A program made the position numbers and the translations under genes. A DNA stretch of 23,346 nucleotides from a virus: positions 1 through 23,346 of IMG/VR virus record IMGVR_UViG_3300009488_001021. One strand, given 5' to 3'. The notes beneath the pieces are model-generated. The model saw nothing but the letters and a program-made list of their open reading frames with translations, did not search any database and was not told the origin of the DNA. Positions within the stretch are counted from its first letter, which is position 1; each line of letters starts with the position of its first letter. Below, piece by piece: positions 154 through 23,346 of the stretch.

Positions 154-1317
154 ATGACGAACCTGTTCGACATCGACAAACATACAATTTTCCTGGGACT
201 CACGGGCTCTCACGCCTATGGGATGGCCCGTCCGGACTCGGATGTGGACATCCGTGGCGTCTGTATCCCACCCCGCCGGATTCGAGACAGCCACTACCAG
301 AGCTTCAAGCAGTGGACCCCTAAGTCTCAGGTGGGCGCATGGGGCCCGAACGCTGAGAAGGCCATCGAGAATCTTGCCAAGCACCCCACCGCAGGCCCTT
401 GTTACGAACGGGACGGCCAGGACGCGGATTTGGTCATTTACTCGGTGCACAAGTTCATCAACCACTGCGCGGAGAACAACCCCAGCTTCTTGGAGATTCT
501 GTTCCTCCCCGAAGAGGCTCAAATCTACACGACGCCGCAATGGGAGATTCTCCAGGCGAACCGCAAGATGTTCCTGTCTCTGGAGGCACGTGCCCGGTAC
601 GTGGGTTACGCGATGGGGCAGCTCGATCGGATTCGTTCGCATCGTGCATGGTTGCTCAACCCGCCCAAGAAGGAGCCGACCCGAGAGGATTACGGTCTTC
701 CTGGGGAGACGGTCATTCCGGCCGACGTGCGCAACCAGATTGACGAGGCAGCCCAGAAGATCATCCGTGCCTGGGGCGTCGAAGATGGCCTCGACCAGTA
801 CATCAAGGGTGCTCCCCAAGATATGCTGCGAAAACGGATGGTGCAGTTCCAAGCAACGGTGATGCGTTGCGAAGAGGCCTTGGTGGATGAGAAAATCTAC
901 AAGCTGGCCGCAGCCTCGATCGGGCTGTCGAAGGACGCCTTGTTTGCGATCAAACAGGAGAGGCGTTACCGAGCAGCCCGGAAGAACTGGGAACAGTACC
1001 AGAAGTGGAAGAAGGATCGAAACGCGGCACGCGCTGAGCTGGAGGCCAAGTTTGGCTATGACTCGAAACACGCCTCCCATCTCATCCGTCTTTTGCGCAC
1101 TGGCCTGGAGCTGATGCGTGACGAGGAACTCCGCGTGTGGCGTGGGGATGCCGAGGAACTCATGGCGATTCGTCGTGGGAAGCTGACTTACGACGAACTG
1201 ATGGAGTCCGCGAACAATTTGAAGGCTGAGATCGTGGAAGCCGTCAAGACGTGCTCTTTCGAAAAGAGCCCGGATCGAGAAAAGATCGATAACCTGCTTT
1301 TCACGATTCTCGACTGA
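154..1317 (+). CDS. RlaP-like nucleotidyltransferase (DNA polymerase beta superfamily)
   Basis: This 387-residue protein opens with the nucleotidyltransferase signature GLTGSHAYGMARPDSDVDIR at residues 15-34. G18-S19 is the GS motif, and D30 and D32 are the metal-binding acidic pair of the DNA polymerase beta fold. That arrangement is typical of the RlaP family, found in bacteria and many phages and linked to RNA repair or modification; the exact substrate is generally unknown. The remainder is mostly helical and highly charged. The ATG at 154 has GGAG at 142-145 as ribosome binding site. The gene sits between the zinc-hook fragment and SbcD, so it probably shares their transcript. Family assignment is firm; a specific reaction is not. 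A long minus-strand open frame over the same stretch is a coding shadow. Confidence 0.8.
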   Translation: MTNLFDIDKHTIFLGLTGSHAYGMARPDSDVDIRGVCIPPRRIRDSHYQSFKQWTPKSQVGAWGPNAEKAIENLAKHPTAGPCYERDGQDADLVIYSVHKFINHCAENNPSFLEILFLPEEAQIYTTPQWEILQANRKMFLSLEARARYVGYAMGQLDRIRSHRAWLLNPPKKEPTREDYGLPGETVIPADVRNQIDEAAQKIIRAWGVEDGLDQYIKGAPQDMLRKRMVQFQATVMRCEEALVDEKIYKLAAASIGLSKDALFAIKQERRYRAARKNWEQYQKWKKDRNAARAELEAKFGYDSKHASHLIRLLRTGLELMRDEELRVWRGDAEELMAIRRGKLTYDELMESANNLKAEIVEAVKTCSFEKSPDREKIDNLLFTILD

Positions 1318-1340
1318 GTTTCACGTAACTCACCCCATCG

Positions 1341-2345
1341 GTGGGTAGAAGTCAGGAGATGATCCGGCTTCTTTGGCGCACCGATGTTCACTGTCGAGAT
1401 CACACCCCTTCGTCCCGCAAGGACGACTGGGTGGAGACGGTTTGCGGTAAGCTGACGCAAGTCGGAGAACTCGCCACCAAGTATGGCTGCGATGCAGTCA
1501 TCGACGGTGGCGATTTTTTTGATGACAAGCTCCCCGTGCGGACCTCTCACCGATTGGTGAGTCGTCTGGCACGGATTCATCGCAATTACCCGTGCCCAAC
1601 CTGGGCCAATATCGGCAACCACGATCTGAGGCTCTCCAAGATCGACAATCTGCCGGAGAACCCTTTGGAGACTCTGTACTCCACAGGGGTCTTCCAGCGG
1701 CTCTACGACGAGCATGAGTGCGTCATTGAGAAGGAGGGGTGCAAAGTCCGTATTGTAGGCGTCCCCTACCACGGACCTCGCTACGACCTTGCACGGTTCA
1801 AGGAGATCGAGCGCAAAGATGAAGACTGGCTCATCTGCAATGCCCACGTCCTAGCATCTCCCCAAGGTGGCGAGATGTTCAAGAACGAGGACATCCTCAA
1901 GTACGACGAGCTGTGTGACCTCAACCCGAACATTGATTGCTGGAATTTCGGACACTGGCATAAGAACCAGGGCATCGCCAAGGTCAAGGGTGACAAATGG
2001 GTGGTCAACATCGGCAGCCTCACTCGTGGATCTCTGACGGAAGACAACATCAAGCGCGAGCCCGGTGTGTGCGTCATGGGTTTTTGGCCCAAGGCGAAGG
2101 AGACACCCCCTTCCTTGGAGTTCGTGAAAATCAAGATCGGCGATCCGAAGGACGTCTTCGACATGGAAAAACGCGCCAAGGAAGAGGCGCGAGCGATGAC
2201 GGTCGATGCCTTCGTGGAGTCCGTGAAGCAGGAGCTACAGGCATCCAGTGACAAGTCTTTTGGGGAAATCGTGGAGACGATGGAGATCCCCGCGGAGATC
2301 AAAGAGCGCGCCCTTGAGTACATCGAGGCAGCGGCTGAGGGGTAG
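1341..2345 (+). CDS. sbcD: SbcD/Mre11-like metallophosphoesterase nuclease
   Basis: This is the nuclease subunit of an Mre11-Rad50 (SbcCD, T4 gp46/47-like) complex, which processes DNA ends for recombination. Counting from the GTG at 1341, all metal-binding motifs are present in order: D15-x-H17, GGDFFD at 56-61, GNHD at 92-95, H169 in NAH, and GHWH at 204-207. The C-terminal third is helical and charged, as expected for the Rad50-binding and capping region. The start is uncertain. GTG 1341 is the only upstream start before an in-frame stop. ATG 1359 would give the more usual MIRLLWRTDVH beginning, but AGGAG at 1354-1358 touches it with no spacer. The gene follows the nucleotidyltransferase by 23 bases and precedes the PD-(D/E)XK nuclease by 8. 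Its ATPase partner is most likely the split Rad50 described here. Confidence 0.9.
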   Translation: MGRSQEMIRLLWRTDVHCRDHTPSSRKDDWVETVCGKLTQVGELATKYGCDAVIDGGDFFDDKLPVRTSHRLVSRLARIHRNYPCPTWANIGNHDLRLSKIDNLPENPLETLYSTGVFQRLYDEHECVIEKEGCKVRIVGVPYHGPRYDLARFKEIERKDEDWLICNAHVLASPQGGEMFKNEDILKYDELCDLNPNIDCWNFGHWHKNQGIAKVKGDKWVVNIGSLTRGSLTEDNIKREPGVCVMGFWPKAKETPPSLEFVKIKIGDPKDVFDMEKRAKEEARAMTVDAFVESVKQELQASSDKSFGEIVETMEIPAEIKERALEYIEAAAEG

Positions 2346-2353
2346 AGTGTCCA

Positions 2354-3295
2354 ATGGTCCGCTCCAAGGTCCGCAGACTCTACTGGTCACACCTCAAGGC
2401 GTATGAGGAGTGCCCACGTAAGTACTTTTGGGGGTACGGGTGGGGCGATATCGATCTGGGTCGTGGTCCCGGTAGAGGTAAGCCTCGTCCGGTCGAGGAT
2501 TCGAAGCACCACCCGGTCATGGGCATCGTCATCCAGGCCGTCTGGGAAGACTTCTACAACAAGGAGTTGTGGCGCCTTCCCGAGATGCGCGGAGCGTACC
2601 TCAAGAGCCAGCTGGTCAAGATGACCAAGGGACACCTGCTCGATGTGCTGCCTCGATTCTACGTGGACTACGACAAGATGTCGTTCGAGGAGATTGAGGA
2701 GACCTGTGTCAGCGGTGTGCTCGGATACATCGCCACCATGCGGCACCACAAATTCCTCAGCCCGACCTATGCGAAGAGCGAGGTGGATTTGTCCACGGGA
2801 CAGATTGCCAACTGGCTCCCTATTGGTGGCCGTGTGGATTTCATCATCAGCCGGCAAGACACGGGCATCACCATCTTGGACGGGAAGAATTCGGCGACCA
2901 AGATGAAGTACACCGACCCGGACCAGCTTCGGTGGTACGCCCTGTGCTTCTCTCTGTGTCACCACAAGCTGCCCGATCGTTTGGGCTTTGTCTGGTTCCG
3001 TTACCCTTACGATGAGGAGAGCGGTGAGGAGGGGGTCGATTGGGTGGACTTCAATCGACGGGATCTCATTGATCTGGCGGCCCGTGCCAAGAAGGTGCGC
3101 CGAGCCCAGGAGAAGGAGCAGTTCGATCCAAAGCCCGTAGCCAAGAACTGCCGTTTTTGCGATTTCGAGTCTGTTTGCGATGCACGCATCGAACAGCGGG
3201 CTGCGAACTCTGCGAAGCGCAAACGAAAAAAGAGCCTGCCCGTCGTGGATGACAACGCCCTCGACGGCATCGTGGAATTCGGATTCAACGACTGA
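2354..3295 (+). CDS. Cas4/RecB-like PD-(D/E)XK nuclease with Fe-S cysteines
   Basis: This 313-residue protein has the features of Cas4/AddB-type exonucleases. An H-x-x-x-G element lies around H53-G57, E143 comes next, then the nuclease core with D162 (GGRVDFI) and D176-G-K178 (ILDGKNS). The QxxxY motif follows at Q191-Y195. One cysteine near the N-terminus (C20 in YEECPRKYF) and three near the C-terminus (C266, C269 and C275 in CRFCDFESVC) match the usual four-Cys iron-sulfur layout. The C-terminus ends in a Lys/Arg-rich stretch (KRKRKK) and an acidic tail. Many phages carry a similar enzyme next to recombination genes, where it probably degrades or resects DNA ends. No cas1, cas2 or repeat array is nearby, so a CRISPR role is unlikely. 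The family call is confident; polarity and partner are unknown. Confidence 0.87.
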   Translation: MVRSKVRRLYWSHLKAYEECPRKYFWGYGWGDIDLGRGPGRGKPRPVEDSKHHPVMGIVIQAVWEDFYNKELWRLPEMRGAYLKSQLVKMTKGHLLDVLPRFYVDYDKMSFEEIEETCVSGVLGYIATMRHHKFLSPTYAKSEVDLSTGQIANWLPIGGRVDFIISRQDTGITILDGKNSATKMKYTDPDQLRWYALCFSLCHHKLPDRLGFVWFRYPYDEESGEEGVDWVDFNRRDLIDLAARAKKVRRAQEKEQFDPKPVAKNCRFCDFESVCDARIEQRAANSAKRKRKKSLPVVDDNALDGIVEFGFND

Positions 3296-3316
3296 GCGTA
3301 GAAACCAGGAGGGGTC

Positions 3317-3586
3317 GTGAGCAACCTAGACGAACAACTAGAAGACGTCATCCAACGCCGCAAAAAAGTCACCGAGACTTTGGAGCGCCTCAAGGGCCGT
3401 AAGGAGCAGGCGCAAGCCAATCTTGAAGCGGTCGAAGAAGAATGCCGTGGTCGCAAAATCGATCCCGAGAAGATCGATGACATCATCGAGCAACTTGAGA
3501 CCAAGTACCGGGACCTTGTCCAGGAGCTGACCAGCGACATCGAAAAAGCCGAGAGCATGATCGAACCCTACGGAGCCAACTCATGA
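3317..3586 (+). CDS. small coiled-coil protein
   Basis: This 89-residue protein is almost entirely heptad-like helix. Residues about 1-45 (EQLEDVIQRRKKVTETLERL onwards) and 54-83 (PEKIDDIIEQLETKYRDLVQ onwards) form two helices joined by a short RGRKIDP turn, so a helical hairpin is likely. The GTG at 3317 has a strong AGGAGG site (within CCAGGAGGGGTC), and the last codons overlap the clamp start as ATGA. No family is recognised. It resembles a stretch of Rad50 coiled coil and lies between genes for Mre11, the clamp and the Rad50 C-half. A role as an accessory or detached coil segment is possible but unproven. It has no cysteine apart from one mid-protein. Confidence 0.75.
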   Translation: MSNLDEQLEDVIQRRKKVTETLERLKGRKEQAQANLEAVEEECRGRKIDPEKIDDIIEQLETKYRDLVQELTSDIEKAESMIEPYGANS

Positions 3587-4788
3587 AAATCGAAGTAGCC
3601 AAACCCGATCTGGAAGCCGCACTCCAAGTCGCTTCCATCGGTATCTCCAAAAGCATCAACCCTCTTACTTCGCACTTCATCTTCCGCTACCAGCAGGATG
3701 ACAACTCCATCGAAGTGCTTTCCAACAGCGGTCGCCAAGGGTGTTCGATGCCCTTGCAAGGGGCCAACATTTCCCTGGACGGAGACCACACTATGTTCAC
3801 CGTCGAGGCGTGGCGTCTCAACAAGTGGATTGCGGCCGTCGAAGACGCTGTGCTCACCCTGGAGTACAAAGACGGCGTCATCAAAGCCACGAGTCCGAAA
3901 GGTTCGGTCAAGTTCCAGTCCCTGGATGCTTCCGAGTTCTCGTTCTGGGACAAGTCTTTGTCCGAGGCGACCGAGGGCGTGGGGATCGAGGCCAAGCGTT
4001 TCCAAGCAGCTCTGAACCACGTCAAGATGTTCATTGCGGATACGGAGACCACGGCCCCCAAGCTTTCCGTTACTGAGATCACAGACGGTTCCTTGCGCTC
4101 TACGGACAAAGGCTCTCTGGCTGAGATTTCCCTTGAGGGGTTCGAGAAAAGCAACCTTCGACTTGGTATCAAAGACCTGGGTCCGGTCATGGCTTTCCTG
4201 GGACACTCCAAGAGCGAAGAGGTGACCCTCCGCGAAGGAGACAATGCCTTGTTCGTGGTTCGCCATGACGGCGGTACGTTGACGGTGACCCGTCCGCAGT
4301 ACCCTTTCCCGGCTGTCGTCATGCCCAGCATGGAGGACCCACAACACTACTGGATTCTTCGTAAGGACCAAGTTGTGTCGGCCATTCAGACGGCCATCGC
4401 CTCTGCGGCCCGTGAGGACCATCAGGTGTACTTTAAGCTCGTCAAGGACGGCGTGGTCGGTGTGTCGATGAAAAGCGCCTCAGGGGAGCTTGTGACGCTT
4501 CACCTGGAGACTCAAGGGTCTACGGTCCCTGGTGGGGAGGGTGAAGAGGACATCAAGATTTCGGGTGATGGTTCCCGAGAAGATGCCGTGCCGATTCCGG
4601 ACGACGGTTTCCCGGTCCCCTACCCTTACCTGCTCAAGGTTCTGGGTCAGTGGAAAGGTGACGAGGTCAAGTTCGTCATCACTCCTCGCATCGACCCGGA
4701 GACGAAAGCCTACCGAGGGGGTTACGTCCAGTTCGCTGAAAAACGTGGTGAGGACAACTTTCTGAGCCTCATCGTCTGGAGCAGCTGA
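3583..4788 (+). CDS. dnaN: DnaN-like DNA polymerase sliding clamp
   Basis: This 401-residue protein resembles the bacterial beta clamp (usually about 365-380 residues), a ring that tethers the polymerase to DNA. The N-terminal part has the clamp pattern, with SINPLTSHFIFRY followed by DNSIEVLSNSGRQGCSMPL, in which strand and loop alternate as in domain I. Later clamp-like elements are LDASEFSFWD, a central RFQAALNHVKMF helix, the LRLGIKDLGPVMAFLG region, and a TLTVTRPQYPFPAVVMP element. A Gly/Glu/Asp-rich insertion around residues 305-325 (VPGGEGEEDIKISGDG) adds length. The start overlaps the coiled-coil gene and the stop overlaps the Rad50 C-half gene (TGATG), which implies translational coupling. 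A DnaX-like clamp loader downstream supports the call. The clamp call rests on pattern resemblance, not on a catalytic motif, because clamps have none. Confidence 0.8.
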   Translation: MKIEVAKPDLEAALQVASIGISKSINPLTSHFIFRYQQDDNSIEVLSNSGRQGCSMPLQGANISLDGDHTMFTVEAWRLNKWIAAVEDAVLTLEYKDGVIKATSPKGSVKFQSLDASEFSFWDKSLSEATEGVGIEAKRFQAALNHVKMFIADTETTAPKLSVTEITDGSLRSTDKGSLAEISLEGFEKSNLRLGIKDLGPVMAFLGHSKSEEVTLREGDNALFVVRHDGGTLTVTRPQYPFPAVVMPSMEDPQHYWILRKDQVVSAIQTAIASAAREDHQVYFKLVKDGVVGVSMKSASGELVTLHLETQGSTVPGGEGEEDIKISGDGSREDAVPIPDDGFPVPYPYLLKVLGQWKGDEVKFVITPRIDPETKAYRGGYVQFAEKRGEDNFLSLIVWSS

Positions 4789-5450
4789 TGAATTCTTTGC
4801 TCCCGGAGCTTCCCGATCTCACCGAAGTGCGTGCCAAGGCCAATAAGGCCTTGGGGTCGCGCGACGCTTTGGATGAGCGCATCGCGGAGAATGACAAGAC
4901 CATCCGGGAGCTGGAGAACGAAGAAGAGCTGCTGAATCTGGTCGGCACACTCATTCGTCGCCTCATCGATGGTGAGGTGACGGATGGGGTCAAGGCTGTC
5001 GAGAAGCTTCAGACCGAAGGGCTCCAGGAGATTTTCAACGATCAGGACCTTTCGGTTCGTGCCGAGGTCTCGGAGTCTCGTGGCAAGGTCTGGGTGACGC
5101 TCTACACCCAGCGAAAACTGCCGGATGGGACGGTGGTTGAAGGCCTCGCGGACCAGTCTTTCGGCGGTAGTGTGCTGACAATGCAGAGCATCCTCATGCG
5201 CGTGACGGTCATCTTCCGTCGAGAGATGCGCCCGATTCTGTTCCTCGATGAGACCTTGGCGGCTCTAGAGGACAAGTATCTGGACCGTGCAGCCCTCTTT
5301 TTGTCGAATCTCTGCAAGCAACTCAATCTGGACATCCTGCTCGTGACTCACAACGAAGCACTCATCAACGCAGCGGAGCATGCCTATGTCGTTTCGGACG
5401 ACGGTGGAAAAGCGAAGTTCCGCAAGCTCAAGAGAGGTCGCAAGTCGTGA
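4788..5450 (+). CDS. C-terminal ATPase half of Rad50/SbcC
   Basis: This 220-residue protein contains only the C-terminal half of a Rad50-type ABC ATPase. A short coil (residues about 12-48) leads into the conserved region before the signature. A divergent ABC signature follows, SFGGSV at 124-129, where canonical Rad50 has LSGGE. Walker B is ILFLDE at 150-155, the D-loop is about 157-166, and the switch histidine is H188 in VTHNE. There is no Walker A and no zinc hook, so it needs a partner supplying the N-half. The likely partner is the protein ending at 122. Its start overlaps the clamp stop and its stop overlaps the next start, so all are probably translated together. A full Rad50 normally carries both halves in one chain. 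The tail is strongly basic (KFRKLKRGRKS). Confidence 0.82.
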   Translation: MNSLLPELPDLTEVRAKANKALGSRDALDERIAENDKTIRELENEEELLNLVGTLIRRLIDGEVTDGVKAVEKLQTEGLQEIFNDQDLSVRAEVSESRGKVWVTLYTQRKLPDGTVVEGLADQSFGGSVLTMQSILMRVTVIFRREMRPILFLDETLAALEDKYLDRAALFLSNLCKQLNLDILLVTHNEALINAAEHAYVVSDDGGKAKFRKLKRGRKS

Positions 5451-5845
5451 AATCCGAAGGCCAGATCAAGCAGAAAATCAAACAGCGGATTTACCGGCAC
5501 CGCAAGAACTATGTGGAGCAGGGGATGGCTCAAAAGCCTGCCAACTGCCAGAACAACCGAGTCGTCCGCCTTCCTCAGCATACGGGGAACCGGGCGACGA
5601 TTCGGGTTTGTGCCATCAAAGACAAGGTCTGCGACTCGACTATGGCCGGCGATCCCCAAGCGGAGAGCTGCCCAGATTTCGAGCACTGTCGAACGGCAGA
5701 GGATCTCAAGAACGAGTTCAAAGAACGCCTGGGGCTGGATGGGGGTGACGTCAACCTCAACGTCATCACCCGCGATTACCCGGATGTAGCCCTGCTGATG
5801 TGGGTGCTAGACGACAACACACAGGACAACACCGATGAACCCTAA
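5447..5845 (+). CDS. Cys-rich phage protein of unknown function
   Basis: This 132-residue protein starts at GTG 5447, overlapping the upstream stop as GTGA, with GAGAGG at 5432-5437 as likely ribosome binding site. A basic N-terminus (IKQKIKQRIYRHRKNYVE) is followed by five cysteines: in ANCQNN, RVCAIKD, VCDST, SCPDF and HC. The C-terminus ends in a YPDVALLMWVLD element. It resembles uncharacterised phage proteins with the same order (basic helix, spaced Cys, then YPDxAxLMWVL). The cysteines could bind zinc or an Fe-S cluster, which is inference. Its place directly after the Rad50 C-half suggests a role in recombination or replication. Confidence 0.75.
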   Translation: MKSEGQIKQKIKQRIYRHRKNYVEQGMAQKPANCQNNRVVRLPQHTGNRATIRVCAIKDKVCDSTMAGDPQAESCPDFEHCRTAEDLKNEFKERLGLDGGDVNLNVITRDYPDVALLMWVLDDNTQDNTDEP

Positions 5846-6368
5846 CCTGCTCGATATCGTTCCTCTAAGTCCCCAGAAGAAGCAAGCGAACACGCTCACT
5901 TTGGAGGACATCAACGTCAATCCCGAGCTGGCTCCTTTTCTGGTGTCGAGTACGAGGTCCGTGGCTTTCGTGCCTTTCGCTTCTCACAAGAAGACGATTC
6001 GTGCAGGCATTCGTAGTCGTCCTGGAATCGAATCGGAGATGGTTGCCGCGGTGGTCGATGCGGGTTCGGAGTTTGAATGGGGGAACGTCCACCCTCTGAC
6101 GACGGAAGGCGTCCAGGCCTGCCTGGAGCACGTGTCTTCGTACATCAGTGTCCCTTTGGAGATTATCTGCGCAGCGGATACTGACCTGGAGGGCGTGGAG
6201 ATTCCTGAGCACATCCAGCAGACCACCGCAAAGTGGCTTCCGAAGGATGCTCTTGTGGTGGTGCCGGCAGACCGGACTTACCTGGGAACCCTGTGGTTGC
6301 TGGGCCCCGACCGAGTGGCCGCAGTCATCCACAATGTTAGTCGGGGCATGGCAGTTGCGTGGAGGTAA
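5835..6368 (+). CDS. unrecognised protein in the replication block
   Basis: This 177-residue protein belongs to no family I recognise. It starts at ATG 5835, inside the end of the previous gene, and its last codons overlap the primase start at 6359. The composition is soluble, with alternating beta and helix. Elements that might be conserved are the FVPFASHKKTIRAGIRSR stretch (residues about 47-64), a cluster of acidic residues in CAADTDLEGVEIPEH, and a C-terminal VVVPADRTYLGTLW, then HNVSRGMAVAWR. No signal peptide, membrane segment or cysteine cluster is present. Its strict overlap with the primase gene suggests they are made together, possibly as partners, but nothing in the sequence shows the function. 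Confidence 0.7.
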   Translation: MNPNLLDIVPLSPQKKQANTLTLEDINVNPELAPFLVSSTRSVAFVPFASHKKTIRAGIRSRPGIESEMVAAVVDAGSEFEWGNVHPLTTEGVQACLEHVSSYISVPLEIICAADTDLEGVEIPEHIQQTTAKWLPKDALVVVPADRTYLGTLWLLGPDRVAAVIHNVSRGMAVAWR

Positions 6369-7054
6369 GCGCGTGGCTTACGAAGGGGCTGGAAGATTCG
6401 CCTCTTACTGAAGACGCCGTCGACTATCTCAAGGGTCGAGGGGCGACGGACCGCATCATCGAAGAGTGGGGCATCAAAGTCTGGGACCCTCCCTTGACCC
6501 CGTGTCCGGATGAGCGTTTGCATCGCCACTACGGAACGCATTTCGATCGTTTTGAGGGGAAGGCTATCTATCCTCTCCTGAGCCCCAAGGGACGATTTCT
6601 GGGTTTCGACAGCCGCCACATCGACCGCAAGGACGACGTCCGTTACCTGCTCCCTGAGAGCCGCTGGAACCCTGTGTGGGTGAACATGCCAGGGGCGATG
6701 GATCGCATCTGGAGCGGCAGTGACATCATGGTGGTGGAGGGCCGTTACGACGTGCTCGCTATGATCCAGCTGGCGGAAGCGAGGGGGAGCAAGATCGCTA
6801 TCCTGGGCTCTGGACCGGCGCACTTGTCGTACAAGCAGATGGGGTTCCTCAAACGCTGGGCTCTGGGCAAGATTTGGATGGCTTACGACAACGACCCGGC
6901 TGGTAAGAAAGGCACAGCAGACGCAGTGGAGTTCGCAAAAAAGGCTCGACTGAATCTTCAGCCCATCCGGTACGGTAAGCTATCAGACGATCCTGGCGCC
7001 CTTTGGGATCGTGGAGGGGTAGAACTCTTGGACCAGGAGTTCCCGCACTTTTAA
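6359..7054 (+). CDS. minimal DnaG-type primase (TOPRIM core only)
   Basis: This 231-residue protein matches the catalytic core of bacterial DnaG primases, which make RNA primers. Residues about 15-45 carry the N-terminal subdomain pattern (DYLKGRGATDRIIEEWGI). GRFLGFDSR lies at 78-86. The TOPRIM fold follows, with its glutamate E127 in IMVVEGRYD and the acidic pair D177-x-D179 in AYDNDPAGKKG, then SDDPGALW near the C-terminus. It lacks the N-terminal zinc-binding domain and the C-terminal helicase-binding domain, so it is roughly 40 percent of DnaG length. Those parts may come from other proteins or be dispensable. GTG 6359 is the only start after the in-frame TAG at 6338, and it overlaps the upstream gene. 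A general TOPRIM protein (OLD-type or topoisomerase-like) is less likely, given the DnaG-specific flanking motifs. Confidence 0.85.
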   Translation: MEVSAWLTKGLEDSPLTEDAVDYLKGRGATDRIIEEWGIKVWDPPLTPCPDERLHRHYGTHFDRFEGKAIYPLLSPKGRFLGFDSRHIDRKDDVRYLLPESRWNPVWVNMPGAMDRIWSGSDIMVVEGRYDVLAMIQLAEARGSKIAILGSGPAHLSYKQMGFLKRWALGKIWMAYDNDPAGKKGTADAVEFAKKARLNLQPIRYGKLSDDPGALWDRGGVELLDQEFPHF

Positions 7055-7066
7055 GGAAACAAACAC

Positions 7067-7531
7067 ATGGTAGAGAAGTGGAAAGCTGGAAAAGACGTCA
7101 TGGATCAGATGCGGGGCCTCATCGCTCAGTACCACCCACATCTGGCTCTGATCGATAAGGAGATCGTGGTGATGTTCCGCGAGAAGGCGGTCGAGAAATC
7201 GGGTCAGGTCATCCCTTGCACGGTCTCCAAGATTTCTCCCGATTTTGAGGTGATGACGGACAAGAAGTTCCCGTACCATTTCAAGATCGAGATTGGTGCC
7301 GATGTGTGGAACAACGAGTTCGACAACGCGCAACGTGAGGCTTTGCTGGACCACTGCTTGTGTGCCATGCGGGTCGAAGACGATCCGGAGAAAGGTCGTA
7401 AGTATTCCCTGCGTCCGCCGGATTTCGTTGGGTACAAAGAAGAGGTGGAGCGGCACGGGATGTGGCGTCCGATGGATGAGGACACTTTGACGATTATCGA
7501 AGAGATGTTCGGGAGCAAGGCAAACGGATAA
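7067..7531 (+). CDS. phage metallopeptidase-family protein with a destroyed HExxH site
   Basis: This 154-residue protein has the layout of the putative phage metallopeptidase family (PhageMetallopep). An N-terminal helix is followed by beta strands, a KFPYHFKIEIGADVW strand, AQREALLDH, and a C-terminal RPPDFVGYKEEVERHGMW. In active members the motif after ALLDH or LLFH is HELLH or HELCH. Here residues 96-100 read H-C-L-C-A, so the catalytic Glu is Cys (C97) and the second zinc histidine is Ala (A100). The later H-D element reads P-D. The protein is therefore probably not a zinc peptidase, unless C97 and C99 build a new metal site. It follows the primase by 12 bases and its TAA overlaps the next ATG. 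The family assignment comes from remembered motif order and is moderately sure. Confidence 0.68.
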   Translation: MVEKWKAGKDVMDQMRGLIAQYHPHLALIDKEIVVMFREKAVEKSGQVIPCTVSKISPDFEVMTDKKFPYHFKIEIGADVWNNEFDNAQREALLDHCLCAMRVEDDPEKGRKYSLRPPDFVGYKEEVERHGMWRPMDEDTLTIIEEMFGSKANG

Positions 7532-7776
7532 TGAAGGGCCGCGTAGATCCCTATAAAGTCTTGAACGACCGAGACGGTTGCCTGTGCGGTCATGGTGGTC
7601 GCAAACACCCGTGGGATTGGAAGGACGACCACAAAGCTGTCACCGTCCCCGTTGACCTCAGCAAGGCCACCTGTGAGACGTGCCGGGATCGATGGCAGAG
7701 TCTTGTCCTCGACCGTCAAAACGCGCTCTACGGCGATCCTTACTCGCCTGTCCCGATGGTAGGCGACGCCGCCTAG
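7531..7776 (+). CDS. small Cys/His-rich protein, putative zinc binder
   Basis: This 81-residue protein starts at ATG 7531, which overlaps the upstream TAA (TAATG). It has a CLCGHGGRKHPW element (residues about 17-28) and, after a short strand region, CETCRD (about 48-53). Two Cys-containing pairs separated by about 30 residues look like a small zinc-ribbon or knuckle, which is inference. Nothing else is recognisable. A DnaG zinc domain is missing from the nearby primase, but this protein lacks the CHC2 spacing needed to claim it fills that gap. It ends 31 bases before the clamp loader gene. Confidence 0.65.
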   Translation: MKGRVDPYKVLNDRDGCLCGHGGRKHPWDWKDDHKAVTVPVDLSKATCETCRDRWQSLVLDRQNALYGDPYSPVPMVGDAA

Positions 7777-7807
7777 GCCGCCCGTGTAGAAGGCACAGAG
7801 ACGTCCC

Positions 7808-9370
7808 GTGAGCCTCGATACTAAATACCGTCCTTTGCGTTACGCCGATGTGCTCGGCCAGGACGCAACCGTCGAGGTCTGCAAGCAGATCGTGAAGGAG
7901 GGCAAAGCCTTCCATCAGAGCTACGTCTTTGCAGGAGCGCACGGAAGTGGCAAGACCACGACCGCCCGTATCTTTGCGCGAGCGATGCTATGCGACGCCC
8001 CCGTGGACGGGGAGCCGTGTGACAAATGTCCTTCGTGTTTCGCGGTTTTGAGCGGGGCTTCGGAAGCTTTCCTGGAGGTGGACGCTGCGACGAACTCGGG
8101 CAAAGACCATGTGCGCCGCATCATGGAAGAGGCCCAGTTCGGAACGGTCTCGGGGAAGCGTCGCATCTATCTTTGGGACGAGAGCCAGGAGCTGAGCAAG
8201 TCTGCCCAGGACGCCATGCTCAAGCCGATGGAGGACAACATCCGTGGCTCACAAGACAGACAGCTCGTCTGCATCTTTGCCACGACCGAACCCAACAAGA
8301 TGCGCGGCGCGATCATGTCCCGGTGCGCGCCGGCCTTCAAGATCGCAATCAATTCGCCAGAGACGATTGCGAAGCGACTCGCTTTCGTCTGTGAACAAGA
8401 AGGGATTGAGCATGACCTTGCGACGCTTTCCCTCATCGCAGAGGTGTCCGAGTGTCACGTCCGCGATTCGATCAAAGCGGTCGAAGGCGTCTCCATGCTG
8501 GGGGCCATTAATCGTGAAAATGTGGAGCGCTACCTCCACTTGGACGCGAACACCTTGTACCTGGACGTTCTCGAAAGCCTGGGTGCAGACCTCCCTCGTG
8601 CCCTTCAAACGGTTGAGAAGATCAACGAACAGGTGTCTCCGGGAGTGGCTTATCGTCACTTGGCCGACATTTGCATGATGGCCTACAGGCTCGCACACCT
8701 GGGGCAAGCATCGGTTCCTTCGTACTGGGACAGGGAGCGACTCCTGCGCGCTGGGGAATTCCACAAGGAATTCCTCGTAGAATTTGCTCAGCGTTTCGCT
8801 GGGCGGCCGATGCGTCCGACAACTTCCATGCTGGCCTGTGACGTTGCGGCGCTTCATCAAAAGCGCGCAGGCGTCCAGGTGGTGGCGACGAGTACGGTCC
8901 AGGTGTCCGTTCCCGCACATGCCCCTCCGATGGCTCCTGTGGCCCCTCAGCCAGTATCTGAGCCACCAGCACCCTCCCCGGCTCCTGAAGCGCCAGAGAC
9001 TCCCGAACCTTCGGTGAGCGAGGTGCCTAACCCTGAAACCACCCTTGAGGACCCCACTCCTGTGGAAGCTCCTCAGCCCCCTATCGAGCCATTACCGAAG
9101 GCCGAAGAGGTGAAAGTGGTTGAAAGTCAAAACGAAGCGGCGCAAAGCGGTAGTATGCAGTCGGAAGCGCACATCAATGAGATGGGCGTTTACATTAACC
9201 CGCAAGCGCAGCAGATGAGTCGAGGCACACCACGACAAAAAGGGAATGGGGTCGGCACTATGACGATCGCATTTTTCACTGAAACACTGCATCGCCGGGT
9301 CATTGAGCTGACACAAGAGAGGTCAACCAGTGGCAGATCGGCGAGACGGGACGACGTGGGTAGCTCTTGA
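7808..9370 (+). CDS. dnaX: DnaX-like clamp loader ATPase (gamma/tau type)
   Basis: This 520-residue AAA+ protein would load the DnaN-like ring onto primed DNA. The start YRPLRYADVLGQDATVEV is the DnaX N-terminal box. Walker A is GAHGSGKT at 43-50. The DnaX zinc module has Cys at 62, 71, 74 and 77. Walker B reads YLWDESQELS with D124-E125, where bacterial DnaX usually has IDEVHMLS. Sensor 1 is IFATTEPNK at about 156-164, and the arginine-finger SRC is at 171-173. Residues about 180-350 are the lid and collar domains. From about 375 to 440 there is a Pro/Glu/Ala-rich linker, then a poorly conserved tail. GTG 7808 gives the expected short N-terminus. The last 41 bases overlap the NusG-like gene. 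The tail is unlike the tau polymerase-binding domain, so its partner is unknown. Confidence 0.9.
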   Translation: MSLDTKYRPLRYADVLGQDATVEVCKQIVKEGKAFHQSYVFAGAHGSGKTTTARIFARAMLCDAPVDGEPCDKCPSCFAVLSGASEAFLEVDAATNSGKDHVRRIMEEAQFGTVSGKRRIYLWDESQELSKSAQDAMLKPMEDNIRGSQDRQLVCIFATTEPNKMRGAIMSRCAPAFKIAINSPETIAKRLAFVCEQEGIEHDLATLSLIAEVSECHVRDSIKAVEGVSMLGAINRENVERYLHLDANTLYLDVLESLGADLPRALQTVEKINEQVSPGVAYRHLADICMMAYRLAHLGQASVPSYWDRERLLRAGEFHKEFLVEFAQRFAGRPMRPTTSMLACDVAALHQKRAGVQVVATSTVQVSVPAHAPPMAPVAPQPVSEPPAPSPAPEAPETPEPSVSEVPNPETTLEDPTPVEAPQPPIEPLPKAEEVKVVESQNEAAQSGSMQSEAHINEMGVYINPQAQQMSRGTPRQKGNGVGTMTIAFFTETLHRRVIELTQERSTSGRSARRDDVGSS

Positions 9371-19315: not shown

Positions 19316-22300
19316 GTGGCGAAGAAGAAGGGAGTCGCCGCTAATCTCGCCCGCATTGCTCTCAATGCGGGTCGTAGCTCAGATAACGCCAACGCGGAAA
19401 CTGAGGCAGCGGACATTATTACCTTCATCCAGGCTCCTTGGGGCCTGGGCGTCAAGCTATTCCCTGTTCAGCGCGTCATCCTGAAGGCCCATTACGGGCT
19501 CAAGCTCGATGACGATCCCAATAACACGTTCACGGTCACAGACTGGAAGCGTGAGGAAGCCAAGGAGTTCACCGAAGCAGGCTACCTGCGTTGGCTGTAC
19601 GACAACAACCGGTGCAACATCAGCGAAGTTGTTCCGGGCCATGAGCGACGCACTCTGATTCTCCCCATCGGGCGCCGTAGCGGCAAATGTGTCGTCGGTA
19701 ACACTCTTCTTTTGACGAATGAGGGAGTGCGCCGAATTGAGGAGTACGACACCGAACAGTCTTACATCGACCATCCGGACGAGGACCACTATCCCCTGGA
19801 GCTTACGGTTGCCCAGGAGGGTAAGAATGCACGGAGCCAGTCTGCCTATTTCTACCGGGGTGGGCATCGAGACATCATCCAAGTAGCGACCTCCTGTGGT
19901 TTTGAGATCGCGGGAACCCCTAACCACCGTATCAAGGTGATGGGCTCAGATGGTCTCATTCAGTGGCGCCGTCTTGACGAGCTTGCAGTGGATGACCAAG
20001 TAGCTGTCCACCGCAACACAGATCTCTGGGCTTCGGAGTACGTCGACACTACAGCGGCTGCCAAGGCTGCTTCTGAGTCTGGACGGAAACAGCTGGCGTT
20101 TCCTGAGAAGCTCGATGAGCAATGGGGACTTCTCCTGGGGATGCTTGTTGGAGACGGGAACTGGCCTGTAAAGAACACGGTCTCCATGACCGTGGAGCAC
20201 GATGAGATGTGGGAGAAGGCGGAAGCCCTTTTCACGCAACTGCTTGGGGCTCCTTCTCGTGTGATGGATAAGCGCACGAAAAACACAGGGGCTCTTCAAT
20301 TCTACAGCGTCGCTGCACGTCGTTTCCTTCATGAGCTTGGGTTCGACTGGCACTGTGGGCGCTACGACAAGCGAGTTCCGCACACGATCATGCGGTCCCC
20401 ACGTCCTGTGGTGCAGGCATTCCTTCGCGGTCTTTTTGAGACCGATGGGGGTGTAGAGTCGGGCGGCAAGACCGTTTCGTTTAGTACGGCGAGTTCCGAG
20501 CTAGCACGCGAAGTTCAAGTTCTGCTGTTGAACTTGGGCATCGTCAGTCGTCGCAAAGCCAAGCGCAACGTGAAGATGGATCGTGATTACTATATCGTCA
20601 CGGTTCGTGGATTGAAATCCCGCACTCTGTTCGCAGAGCGTGTCGGGTTCATGACGCACAAAAAGATGGACCCTTTGTGTGAGTCCATTCGAGTGGCTTC
20701 CCGCGAAGGCGGGAATACGGAAACCATCCCTCATCAGCGAAACTGGTGTCGTCAGCTTCTAGAGTCCGTGCCTAAAGGACACAAAACCAGTGGAAAGGGG
20801 TGGCAACGTTCCAACCTCCGTAGCTGTTTGGGCAATACGATCAAGCCTTCTGCAAAAGAAGAAATGACCTACCCGCGTTGGGAGAAGACACTCCCCGTTG
20901 CTGAGAAGCTTGGTGCAGATCTTGAGATTCTTGAGCATTTTCAGGAACTGACCGAGGCCGACTATTTTTACGATCCTGTCGTAAGCTTGGTGGAGGACGA
21001 AGAGGCGGTCTACGACTTGTGTGTTCCGGATGGCGAGAGCTTTGTTGCCAACGGGTTGACGAACCACAATACGATGATCTCTGCGTGCATCGCTGCGTAC
21101 GAGACCTACAAGCTCATCAACAAGGGCAACCCGCAGAAGTACTACGGCGTTGCTCCTTCGAACCCCATCCGTCTCGTCTCTGTCGCTACCGGTAAGGAGC
21201 AGGCAGGTCTTCTGTACGAAGAGGTTTCGCACCACTTTGCGAAATGCCTAGCGGGTGAAACTGAAGTTATCACTGATAAGGGAATTTTGCCGATTGGGGA
21301 GCTGGCAGGGACGGAGCAGATTTTGCTCACTGGGGACGGGTCTTGGGTCAAAGCGCCTATTCGATCGTTTGGGCATCAACGCCTGTATGAAGTGCGCCTT
21401 AAAAGACAAGGGCGCGAGAAAGTCATCTACGCGACAAAAGACCATCGATGGTTCACGATGGATGCTCGAAAAGCATATCGTGGGAAAGGCTACCAGGAGT
21501 TCACAACTGAGGAGCTTCGTCCAGAGAAGCACCGTCTGAAGATGTCATATGGGCGTTCCTGGAAAAACCGGATTAACCCGTCTCCTTTTGGGATCGCGCA
21601 TGGGTTTACTTTCGGGGATGGATCTACCAAACCGGGGAAACGGAACGCCAACACGGCGAATTTGATCGGGGCAAAAGACCAAGCTCTTCTTCCGTATTTT
21701 TCGATGTGCCCGCAAGCTGAGCGGTCTGCGATCAACAGTGTTGAAGTGGCCGCGTTGCCCAATTTCTTCCGGGAACTCCCTGATATCCAGGAGAACAAAG
21801 CTTACCTTCTAGGTTGGTTGATGGGGTACTTCGCGGCGGACGGTACTGTGATGAAAGAAGAGGGCATCCTCCTCTATTCCGCAAGTCACCGAAATCTCAA
21901 GTTTGCCGAAAGCGTCTGTGCGCTTCTTGGTATTGGGACTTACGACATCCGATATCAAGACCGGATCTCGAATATGACGGGACGTCCTTCTCGGATGTAC
22001 AGTCTGCGGCTGATGGGTCATACGCTGAATGAGGATTTCTTCCTCATCTCTCACCATCAGGAGAATTATCGGAACACAGGGGCCGCAGAACTCAAAAGGG
22101 ATGCGACTAAATGGCGTGTGGTTTCTGTGAAAGAAACGGACCGCGTGGAAGAAGTATTCTGCGCGACCGTGGAGGGCCACGGGGATTTCACCCTTGCTGG
22201 CAACATCGTCACCGGTAACTGTAACTTCTTCAAGCGGTACACGGCGAACAACACCATGTCGTATGCGCGTTTCCAGACGCCGCACGACATTGATGAGTTT

Positions 22301-23346
22301 GGTTCGTACTCCGAGAACCCCCAGGCGCGCGCTTCCATCAAGGTGTTCTTCGCAGCCTGTAACGCCAAGAGTCTTCGTGGTCAGGGCAACATCGTCATCA
22401 TCCTCGATGAGGTTGCCCACTTCTTGGCTCAAGGTGGCAGTTCCGCGGACGAGGTCTTCAGCGCTGTTGCACCGTCGAATGCAGCCTTCACCCCCAAAGA
22501 CGAGTTTGGTGTCCCCATCGACGGCGTTGAGGAGACGGAGTCTGACGGTCGCATCATCATGATTTCGTCTCCGCTGGGCAAGCAGGGACTGTTCTACAAG
22601 AAGTTCTTGCAGGGCATGAGCGGCAGCGAGGCCGCTGAAAACATCCTCTGCGTTCAGGCTCCTACCTGGGAAGTGAACCCCACCGTTCCCGCTTCTTACT
22701 TCAAGGAGCACTACGCGTTCGACAAGCGCGTGTTCTTCCAGGAGTTCGGTGCCGAGTTCTCGGACCGTACTCTCGGTTGGCTGGATGATCCCCAGGACTT
22801 GTTTGACTGTGTGGACAAGAACCTGCGAGCCAAAACACGTGGTCTTGCTCGTGTCCCCTACTTCGTGGGGTTCGACCTTGGTCTGGTGAAGGATGCCAGT
22901 GCAATTGCGATCACCCACATCGATGAGAACCAGCGCATCGTCCTGGATTACATCGGACAGATTCAGGCAGGCCATGGAGAGTTCGAAGGTAAGCCTCGAC
23001 TCGACTTCGAAGAGATCGCGGCTTGGATTCATCTCCTGTCACGCCGCTTCCACTTCCATCGCGGCCTGTTCGATCAATATGCCGCTATCCCGTTGGAGCA
23101 GGCTCTTCACAAGAAGGGTTTGTCCATGTTCGAAGGCAAGCTTTTCACGCCTCGGGAGAAGTCGGATATTTGGGCGAACTTCAAATCGATGATGTGGGAC
23201 CGCATTGGCGGCAAACCCCGTCTTGCTTTGTACGACATGGACGATCGGATGCGTGCCAAGTATGCCGCTCAAGATGAGATGGCACCGGAGCACTTGCCTT
23301 ACATCCGACAGATCCTGTCGCTTCAGGCAACCTACCGTTCGCAGTA
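19316..23346 (+). CDS. terL: large terminase subunit interrupted by two inteins, 3' end beyond the window
   Basis: The frame is open from GTG 19316 to the window end. Spliced together, the exteins form a phage DNA-packaging motor. Extein 1 (124 residues) ends in GRRSGK, the Walker A loop; extein 2 (58 residues, TMISACIAAYETYKLI onwards) resumes with Thr, restoring GRRSGKT. Extein 3 starts CNFFKRYTANN. Walker B is NIVIILDEVAH and the coupling motif is IMISSPLGKQG. The nuclease domain shows VGFDLGLVKDASAIAI with the first metal Asp and GLFDQYAAIP with a second acidic residue. The C-terminal nuclease part runs off the end. Inteins lie at 19688-21070 and 21245-22219, and phase is kept through both. 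Coupling to the preceding gene is tight. Splicing must occur for packaging, because intein 1 splits the ATP site. Confidence 0.93.
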   Translation, partial: MAKKKGVAANLARIALNAGRSSDNANAETEAADIITFIQAPWGLGVKLFPVQRVILKAHYGLKLDDDPNNTFTVTDWKREEAKEFTEAGYLRWLYDNNRCNISEVVPGHERRTLILPIGRRSGKCVVGNTLLLTNEGVRRIEEYDTEQSYIDHPDEDHYPLELTVAQEGKNARSQSAYFYRGGHRDIIQVATSCGFEIAGTPNHRIKVMGSDGLIQWRRLDELAVDDQVAVHRNTDLWASEYVDTTAAAKAASESGRKQLAFPEKLDEQWGLLLGMLVGDGNWPVKNTVSMTVEHDEMWEKAEALFTQLLGAPSRVMDKRTKNTGALQFYSVAARRFLHELGFDWHCGRYDKRVPHTIMRSPRPVVQAFLRGLFETDGGVESGGKTVSFSTASSELAREVQVLLLNLGIVSRRKAKRNVKMDRDYYIVTVRGLKSRTLFAERVGFMTHKKMDPLCESIRVASREGGNTETIPHQRNWCRQLLESVPKGHKTSGKGWQRSNLRSCLGNTIKPSAKEEMTYPRWEKTLPVAEKLGADLEILEHFQELTEADYFYDPVVSLVEDEEAVYDLCVPDGESFVANGLTNHNTMISACIAAYETYKLINKGNPQKYYGVAPSNPIRLVSVATGKEQAGLLYEEVSHHFAKCLAGETEVITDKGILPIGELAGTEQILLTGDGSWVKAPIRSFGHQRLYEVRLKRQGREKVIYATKDHRWFTMDARKAYRGKGYQEFTTEELRPEKHRLKMSYGRSWKNRINPSPFGIAHGFTFGDGSTKPGKRNANTANLIGAKDQALLPYFSMCPQAERSAINSVEVAALPNFFRELPDIQENKAYLLGWLMGYFAADGTVMKEEGILLYSASHRNLKFAESVCALLGIGTYDIRYQDRISNMTGRPSRMYSLRLMGHTLNEDFFLISHHQENYRNTGAAELKRDATKWRVVSVKETDRVEEVFCATVEGHGDFTLAGNIVTGNCNFFKRYTANNTMSYARFQTPHDIDEFGSYSENPQARASIKVFFAACNAKSLRGQGNIVIILDEVAHFLAQGGSSADEVFSAVAPSNAAFTPKDEFGVPIDGVEETESDGRIIMISSPLGKQGLFYKKFLQGMSGSEAAENILCVQAPTWEVNPTVPASYFKEHYAFDKRVFFQEFGAEFSDRTLGWLDDPQDLFDCVDKNLRAKTRGLARVPYFVGFDLGLVKDASAIAITHIDENQRIVLDYIGQIQAGHGEFEGKPRLDFEEIAAWIHLLSRRFHFHRGLFDQYAAIPLEQALHKKGLSMFEGKLFTPREKSDIWANFKSMMWDRIGGKPRLALYDMDDRMRAKYAAQDEMAPEHLPYIRQILSLQATYRSQ
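19688..21070 (+). mobile_element. intein 1 with LAGLIDADG homing endonuclease, in the terminase Walker A loop
   Basis: These 461 residues run from Cys1 (CVVGNTLLLTNEG) to the C-terminal VANGLTNHN; the +1 extein residue is Thr (21071). Block B has the GTPNHRIKV (TxxH) motif within GFEIAGTPNHRI. Blocks F and G read AVYDLCVPDGESFVANGLTN then HN, the normal penultimate His and last Asn. Two endonuclease motifs, LLLGMLVGDGNW and AFLRGLFETDGGVE, mark a LAGLIDADG (DOD) homing enzyme that could cut intein-free terminase alleles. The insertion lies between the Lys and Thr of GRRSGK/T, a P-loop site also used by inteins in other terminases and ATPases. All required splicing residues seem intact. No stop or frameshift is visible. 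Confidence 0.92.
21245..22219 (+). mobile_element. intein 2 in the terminase, with a non-canonical Gly-Asn C-terminus
   Basis: These 325 residues run from Cys1 (CLAGETEVITDKGILPIGEL) to the end FTLAGNIVTGN; the +1 extein residue is Cys (22220). The TxxH motif is ATKDHRWF. The endonuclease region has IAHGFTFGDGST and YLLGWLMGYFAADGTV, LAGLIDADG-like motifs. The end lacks the usual penultimate His and has Gly-Asn instead, a variant known to splice in some inteins. A hand count gives 31/60 G+C at 21541-21600 inside it, versus 36/60 at 22321-22380 in the extein, a small hint of separate origin. Only 58 extein residues separate it from intein 1. Confidence 0.9.

Follow-up and report, generated by a model that had tools for sequence, protein, structure and literature searches.

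The question raised by the 3' part of this virus record is whether a single terminase gene can accommodate two separate inteins at close quarters and, if so, how both came to reside there. An open frame at 19316-23344 of the window (the whole stretch of DNA analysed, 23,346 bases) begins with GTG and continues for 1343 codons without a stop until it runs off the window end; the chance of a stop-free frame of this length, judged from base composition, is about 2e-23. Since the window is the entire virus record, the 3' end of the gene is missing, and the rest of a related gene, including its C-end, was supplied by L001, a contig from another metagenome. The frame is divided into 124, 461, 58, 325 and 375 aa, exactly the partition claimed in the preliminary description, and on sequence evidence the presence of two separate LAGLIDADG inteins in one large terminase subunit (TerL), 58 extein residues apart, can be taken as confirmed. 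The features are as follows.

19316-19687, plus strand: TerL N-extein, 124 aa, ending in Walker A GRRSGK (19670-19687); from alignment to intein-free TerLs
19688-21070, plus strand: intein 1, site a (GK^T), 461 aa, Cys1, +1 Thr; from motifs, families and same-site homologues
19916-19927, plus strand: TPNH of intein 1
20126-20158, plus strand: first LAGLIDADG motif of intein 1, GLLLGMLVGDG
20417-20452, plus strand: second LAGLIDADG motif of intein 1, AFLRGLFETDGG
21071-21244, plus strand: middle extein, 58 aa; identical in the L001 protein and of equal length in the other double alleles
21245-22219, plus strand: intein 2, site b (K^C), 325 aa, Cys1, +1 Cys; from motifs, relatives and a structural model
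21434-21445, plus strand: TKDH of intein 2
21590-21622, plus strand: first LAGLIDADG motif of intein 2, GIAHGFTFGDG
21806-21844, plus strand: second LAGLIDADG motif of intein 2, LLGWLMGYFAADG
22220-23344, plus strand: TerL C-extein, 375 aa, truncated by the window end; from alignment to intein-free TerLs
22391-22411, plus strand: Walker B IVIILDE, in the C-extein
22562-22582, plus strand: ISSPLGK, in the C-extein
22868-22897, plus strand: first nuclease Asp motif GFDLGLVKDA, in the C-extein

The host gene encodes TerL of a large tailed phage. Walker A (GRRSGK^T), Walker B (IVIILDE) and the nuclease Asp motif (GFDLGL) are all present, the protein matches PHROG 17415 TerL, and the extein is 28% identical to the annotated TerL of Tunturi_5 over 83% of its length. 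The genes upstream, at 154-9367, encode an RlaP-like nucleotidyltransferase, a metallophosphoesterase, a PD-(D/E)XK nuclease, a Toprim primase-like protein and a clamp-loader-like ATPase, a set that fits a large phage; no inteins were shown among the genes scanned in that region.

We propose, with a probability of roughly 0.92, that TerL has been invaded by two unrelated inteins of class-1 type, which both splice, arrived separately and spread by homing, a ribonucleotide reductase (RNR) intein being the probable source of intein 2. The precursor would splice twice to yield an uninterrupted ATPase-nuclease, excision of intein 1 joining Lys to the Walker A Thr and excision of intein 2 joining Lys to a conserved Cys 58 residues further on. 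As the P-loop is broken until intein 1 leaves, splicing should be needed for packaging. Each LAGLIDADG endonuclease would cleave the corresponding unoccupied site in a phage that infects the same cell, and the intein would then be copied into it. The two inteins probably arrived in separate steps, and each comes and goes independently of the other.

Precise absence of the intein was found at both sites in homologous host genes. The preliminary description had named, as the observation that would speak against it, an alignment in which homologous terminases keep 19688-21070 or 21245-22219 as normal sequence; when this alignment was made, the TerLs of L002, L006 and L010 lacked both stretches and were continuous at both joints. 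The identity of these intein-free proteins to the window exteins is 73% (L002), 82% (L010, on a 618,736-base contig) and 52% (L006, LR745208, a 485 kb record). Empty alleles also bear on the two +1 nucleophiles, Thr after intein 1 and Cys after intein 2, both of which we found at their joints. In the respective alignment columns, the +1 residue in empty alleles is Thr in 58 of 60 rows at site a (Ser in one, with one row not covering the position); at site b, 75 of 76 rows have Cys. The nucleophiles are thus what the host gene offers there. The earlier proposal that their difference limits cross-splicing finds no support in these ordinary host residues, and nothing suggests that they were chosen to avoid it.

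Another explanation for the pair would be that it is retained as a regulator of packaging, two conditional splicing steps serving as sensors that delay terminase activity. Such a role was proposed for the TerL of cyanophage Mic1 (PMC7156551), and intein 1 is located in the P-loop. However, a close relative with an empty gene (L010, 82%) and repeated gain or loss show that neither intein is needed, and homing alone accounts for the pattern; we consider regulation improbable and prefer invasion by homing elements.

The joint of intein 1, whose C-end is FVANGLTNHN, reads GK^C...NHN^T inside Walker A, and C1, TPNH, NHN and the +1 Thr are all in place. Its score with Pfam Intein_splicing is 45.1 against a gathering cut-off of 35.8, that with LAGLIDADG_3 (73.3 bits) is also above the gathering score, and the endonuclease Asp residues are present in the LVGDG and FETDG motifs. 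Intein 1 further resembles the intein portions of many NCBIfam models; NCBIfam intein_Nterm matched both inteins, its cut-off being exceeded by intein 1 only. No similarity between the two inteins was detectable by BLASTP (E=0.34).

The preliminary description credited both inteins with complete block sets. That of intein 2 is not fully canonical: its C-end is GNIVTGN (joint TGN^C), with Gly instead of the block G His before the final Asn, as in most of its relatives. Endings of the TGN type are the norm in the intein 2 family across TerL, RNR and DnaG hosts, so the penultimate Gly is a natural variation and is not taken to disqualify the element as an intein. The splicing residues C1, TKDH, N325 and +1 Cys are present, and C1, T64, H67, D125, D199 and N325 are invariant in an alignment of 38 sequences of the family. 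A single-sequence fold (pLDDT 35) was superseded by an alignment-based model with mean pLDDT 93.4 and pTM 0.90, whose best PDB matches are the TliVMA intein (E 1.6e-12), PI-PfuI (1.8e-11) and PI-SceI; according to this model, intein 2 is a complete Hint splicing fold with a LAGLIDADG domain. It could be argued that only intein 1 still splices, intein 2 being impaired (TGN, not xHN) and the functional terminase coming from elsewhere, as the penultimate Gly is non-canonical and intein 2 scores 23.4 with Intein_splicing, below the cut-off of 35.8 (LAGLIDADG_3 is passed, at 23.7 against 22.5). This seems very unlikely in view of the usual family ending, the modelled Hint fold, the intact terminase around it and the strong purifying selection on its sequence.

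The last point is provided by L001, which carries both inteins at identical positions. Identity between the window and L001 is 78% for intein 1, 90% for intein 2 and 84-100% for the extein segments, and the two intein pairs gave pN of 0.145 and 0.062 against pS of 0.77 and 0.73, respectively. The first LAGLIDADG motif of intein 1 reads LAGGG in L001 and LVGDG in the window; with this catalytic Asp lost, the L001 endonuclease is probably dead, the splicing blocks being retained.

How the two sites are occupied was surveyed by a profile search of viral contigs, which gave 80 TerL loci, and by a second search aimed at relatives of intein 2, which added filled b sites; the combined set has 86 TerL rows, 74 of them different. 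Fifty-six are empty, 19 have intein a only (two seen in part), two have b only, eight have both, and one more has b with a unseen, the contig starting within intein 2; since the search for b carriers was targeted, these counts are biased and are not population frequencies. The double alleles are those of the window, L001, L115 (counted as double, its contig holding just the end of intein 1), L116-118 (identical TerLs) and L120-121, and represent about four TerL lineages with a spacing of 58 residues in each. On the extein tree there were at least 14 changes at a and at least seven at b (the trees are quick ones, with SH-aLRT as their only support). L120, with both inteins, and L068, with a only, are 98.6% identical in exteins and 94.8% in intein 1; L114 (b only) and L115 (both) are 91% identical in exteins and 89% in intein 2. 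In these near-identical pairs the difference in intein content is confined to a single site. Each site thus changes alone, and the pattern indicates, at the level of sequence, stepwise homing and loss at both sites.

These data also bear on the idea that the two inteins move as one unit rather than singly. Both are common to the window and L001, as co-homing would predict; yet the closest relatives of double alleles are a-only and b-only alleles, the changes on the extein tree (14 and seven) are separate, and double homing of adjacent inteins is inefficient in Haloferax (PMC10643990). We therefore give co-homing very little credence. An assembly chimera or misread frame, for which one could cite the metagenomic origin of the contigs and the continuation of the gene past the window end, is refuted by recurrence of the architecture in L001, L115, L116-118 and L120-121 from several metagenomes and by the absence of stops from 1343 codons, and its probability is negligible.

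Several searches and candidates around this survey deserve mention. A DNA pattern for filled b sites retrieved chiefly empty alleles and overlooked filled ones whose +2 residue is Ala; the protein-profile search was better. At the nucleotide level, the phage collection gave no match to the first 1.75 kb of the gene. Four relatives seemed to lack a long frame, but their true start lies downstream of the stop, and recoding was excluded. Two TerLs (L052 5184-5654, L057 5172-5642) have about 157 extra residues near position 70 of the extein; this insert, considered as a third site, has no intein features and is perhaps an added domain.

Where intein 2 came from is a separate problem. Its nearest relatives outside TerL are RNR inteins of phages and one bacterium, inserted at NN^C[AG]F; the closest family is that of the TGN^C RNR inteins (for example L128, L193, Thermobifida phage P318), at no more than 55% identity, which share its endonuclease layout and mostly its C-end, and differ in host protein. 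In the intein tree, a single branch next to the RNR inteins unites those of TerL-b; as the support of this branch is 57%, a single entry of the family into terL is likely by sequence, not proven. When a 22-base RNR homing site was compared with successive positions on either strand of 16 empty terL genes (about 3,100 places), site b had a median rank of 3rd; its median rank with DnaG homing sites was 183rd, and that of site a with RNR homing sites was 788th. Matches to the RNR site averaged 11.7 of 22 for b sites against 7.6 (sd 1.5) among 479 in-frame Cys codons; most b sites were above the 99th percentile of such codons and still high without the six central bases, a level that DnaG homing sites did not reach. 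Homology among the 16 empty b sites, however, makes them one high-scoring site and not 16 independent tests. Ectopic homing of an RNR intein is the probable route by which intein 2 reached terL. The fuller scenario, in which site b was opened once by ectopic homing of an RNR intein with a similar recognition sequence, the intein then spread and doubles arose several times by stepwise invasion, is one that we favour by a narrow measure; if true, the a/b doubles of TerL would be to phages what the MCM-a/MCM-d pair is to haloarchaea. Among RNR genes, a 257 kb phage contig (L107, ORF from 3588) has a frame of 1627 aa with three apparent inteins, the first a mini-intein related to intein 2, and the intein in the RNR of Thermobifida phage P318 (L087) ends in TGQ^C, Gln replacing the usual final Asn.

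The preliminary description regarded such a double as less common. This is correct in general, but not within this phage family, with its four or so double lineages, and published two-intein TerLs exist. Cyanophage Mic1 (MN013189) carries two inteins in TerL (PMC7156551), as here with one +1 Thr and one +1 Cys and an endonuclease domain in the larger intein; its sites, taken from MN013189, are LLTG^C...SHN^TPKGYG and, near the gene end, DHL^C...VSN^C. Unlike here, neither is Walker A or b, and their spacing is far greater than 58 extein residues. Two inteins also divide the TerL of the crAss-like Delta phage OBYQ01000140 (PMC7886860) into three in-frame pieces, as in the window, but they are of Hint-Hop type in a gene with in-frame TAG codons, whereas those described here are of LAGLIDADG type under the standard code. 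In mycobacteriophages (PMC5050341), the TerL1-a intein separates the invariant Lys of Walker A from its Thr, just as intein 1 does; alternative insertion sites in TerL, several in number, are also described, and five representative terminase inteins were shown to splice and two to cut empty targets. The passages of that report used here mention no two-intein TerL. Haloferax MCM-a and MCM-d (PMC10643990) are likewise adjacent LAGLIDADG inteins in one ATPase gene, one of them just past the Walker A Lys; the host is an archaeal helicase, which, like the second site, is unrelated to the TerL case. The haloarchaeal MCM inteins are transferred separately, with no sign of co-homing and with mutual hindrance of homing (PMC10643990). 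Site b (HF..^C.FF), which falls after Walker A and before Walker B, is undescribed in the intein literature cited here, TerL1-c and TerL1-d aside; a PDB search with the TerL profile gave no match, so site b is not placeable on a solved terminase.

Two inteins in a phage terminase have thus already been reported, and the present case is a good new example with unusually good natural alleles. Empty, single and double alleles differing by as little as 1-9% in extein offer a natural test of the way in which adjacent homing elements coexist in a gene, and the TerL family also tests intein jumps between unrelated genes via look-alike sequences. There is a warning for annotation as well: TerL serves as a standard marker of phages, and inteins make up nearly 60% of the frame as translated in the window.

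Other observations concern the surroundings of TerL in related phages. Tandem terminase ATPase-like paralogues lie just upstream of an intact TerL (L076 1251-3297, L065 3369-4133), and in some of them Walker A looks altered (AGGRLGSKS, VGRRGGMS). In the 485 kb phage LR745208 (L006), a TnpB/IS605 OrfB-like gene from 1608 is directly upstream of TerL. The portal proteins of two related phages (L110, ORF from 2257, and L111) have inteins at the same place, so an adjacent packaging gene has been invaded too. On the 618 kb contig of L010, where TerL is empty, inteins occur in the P-loop of a RecD-like helicase (GTGK^C...SHN^T) and in a DnaB-like helicase (L108, L109).
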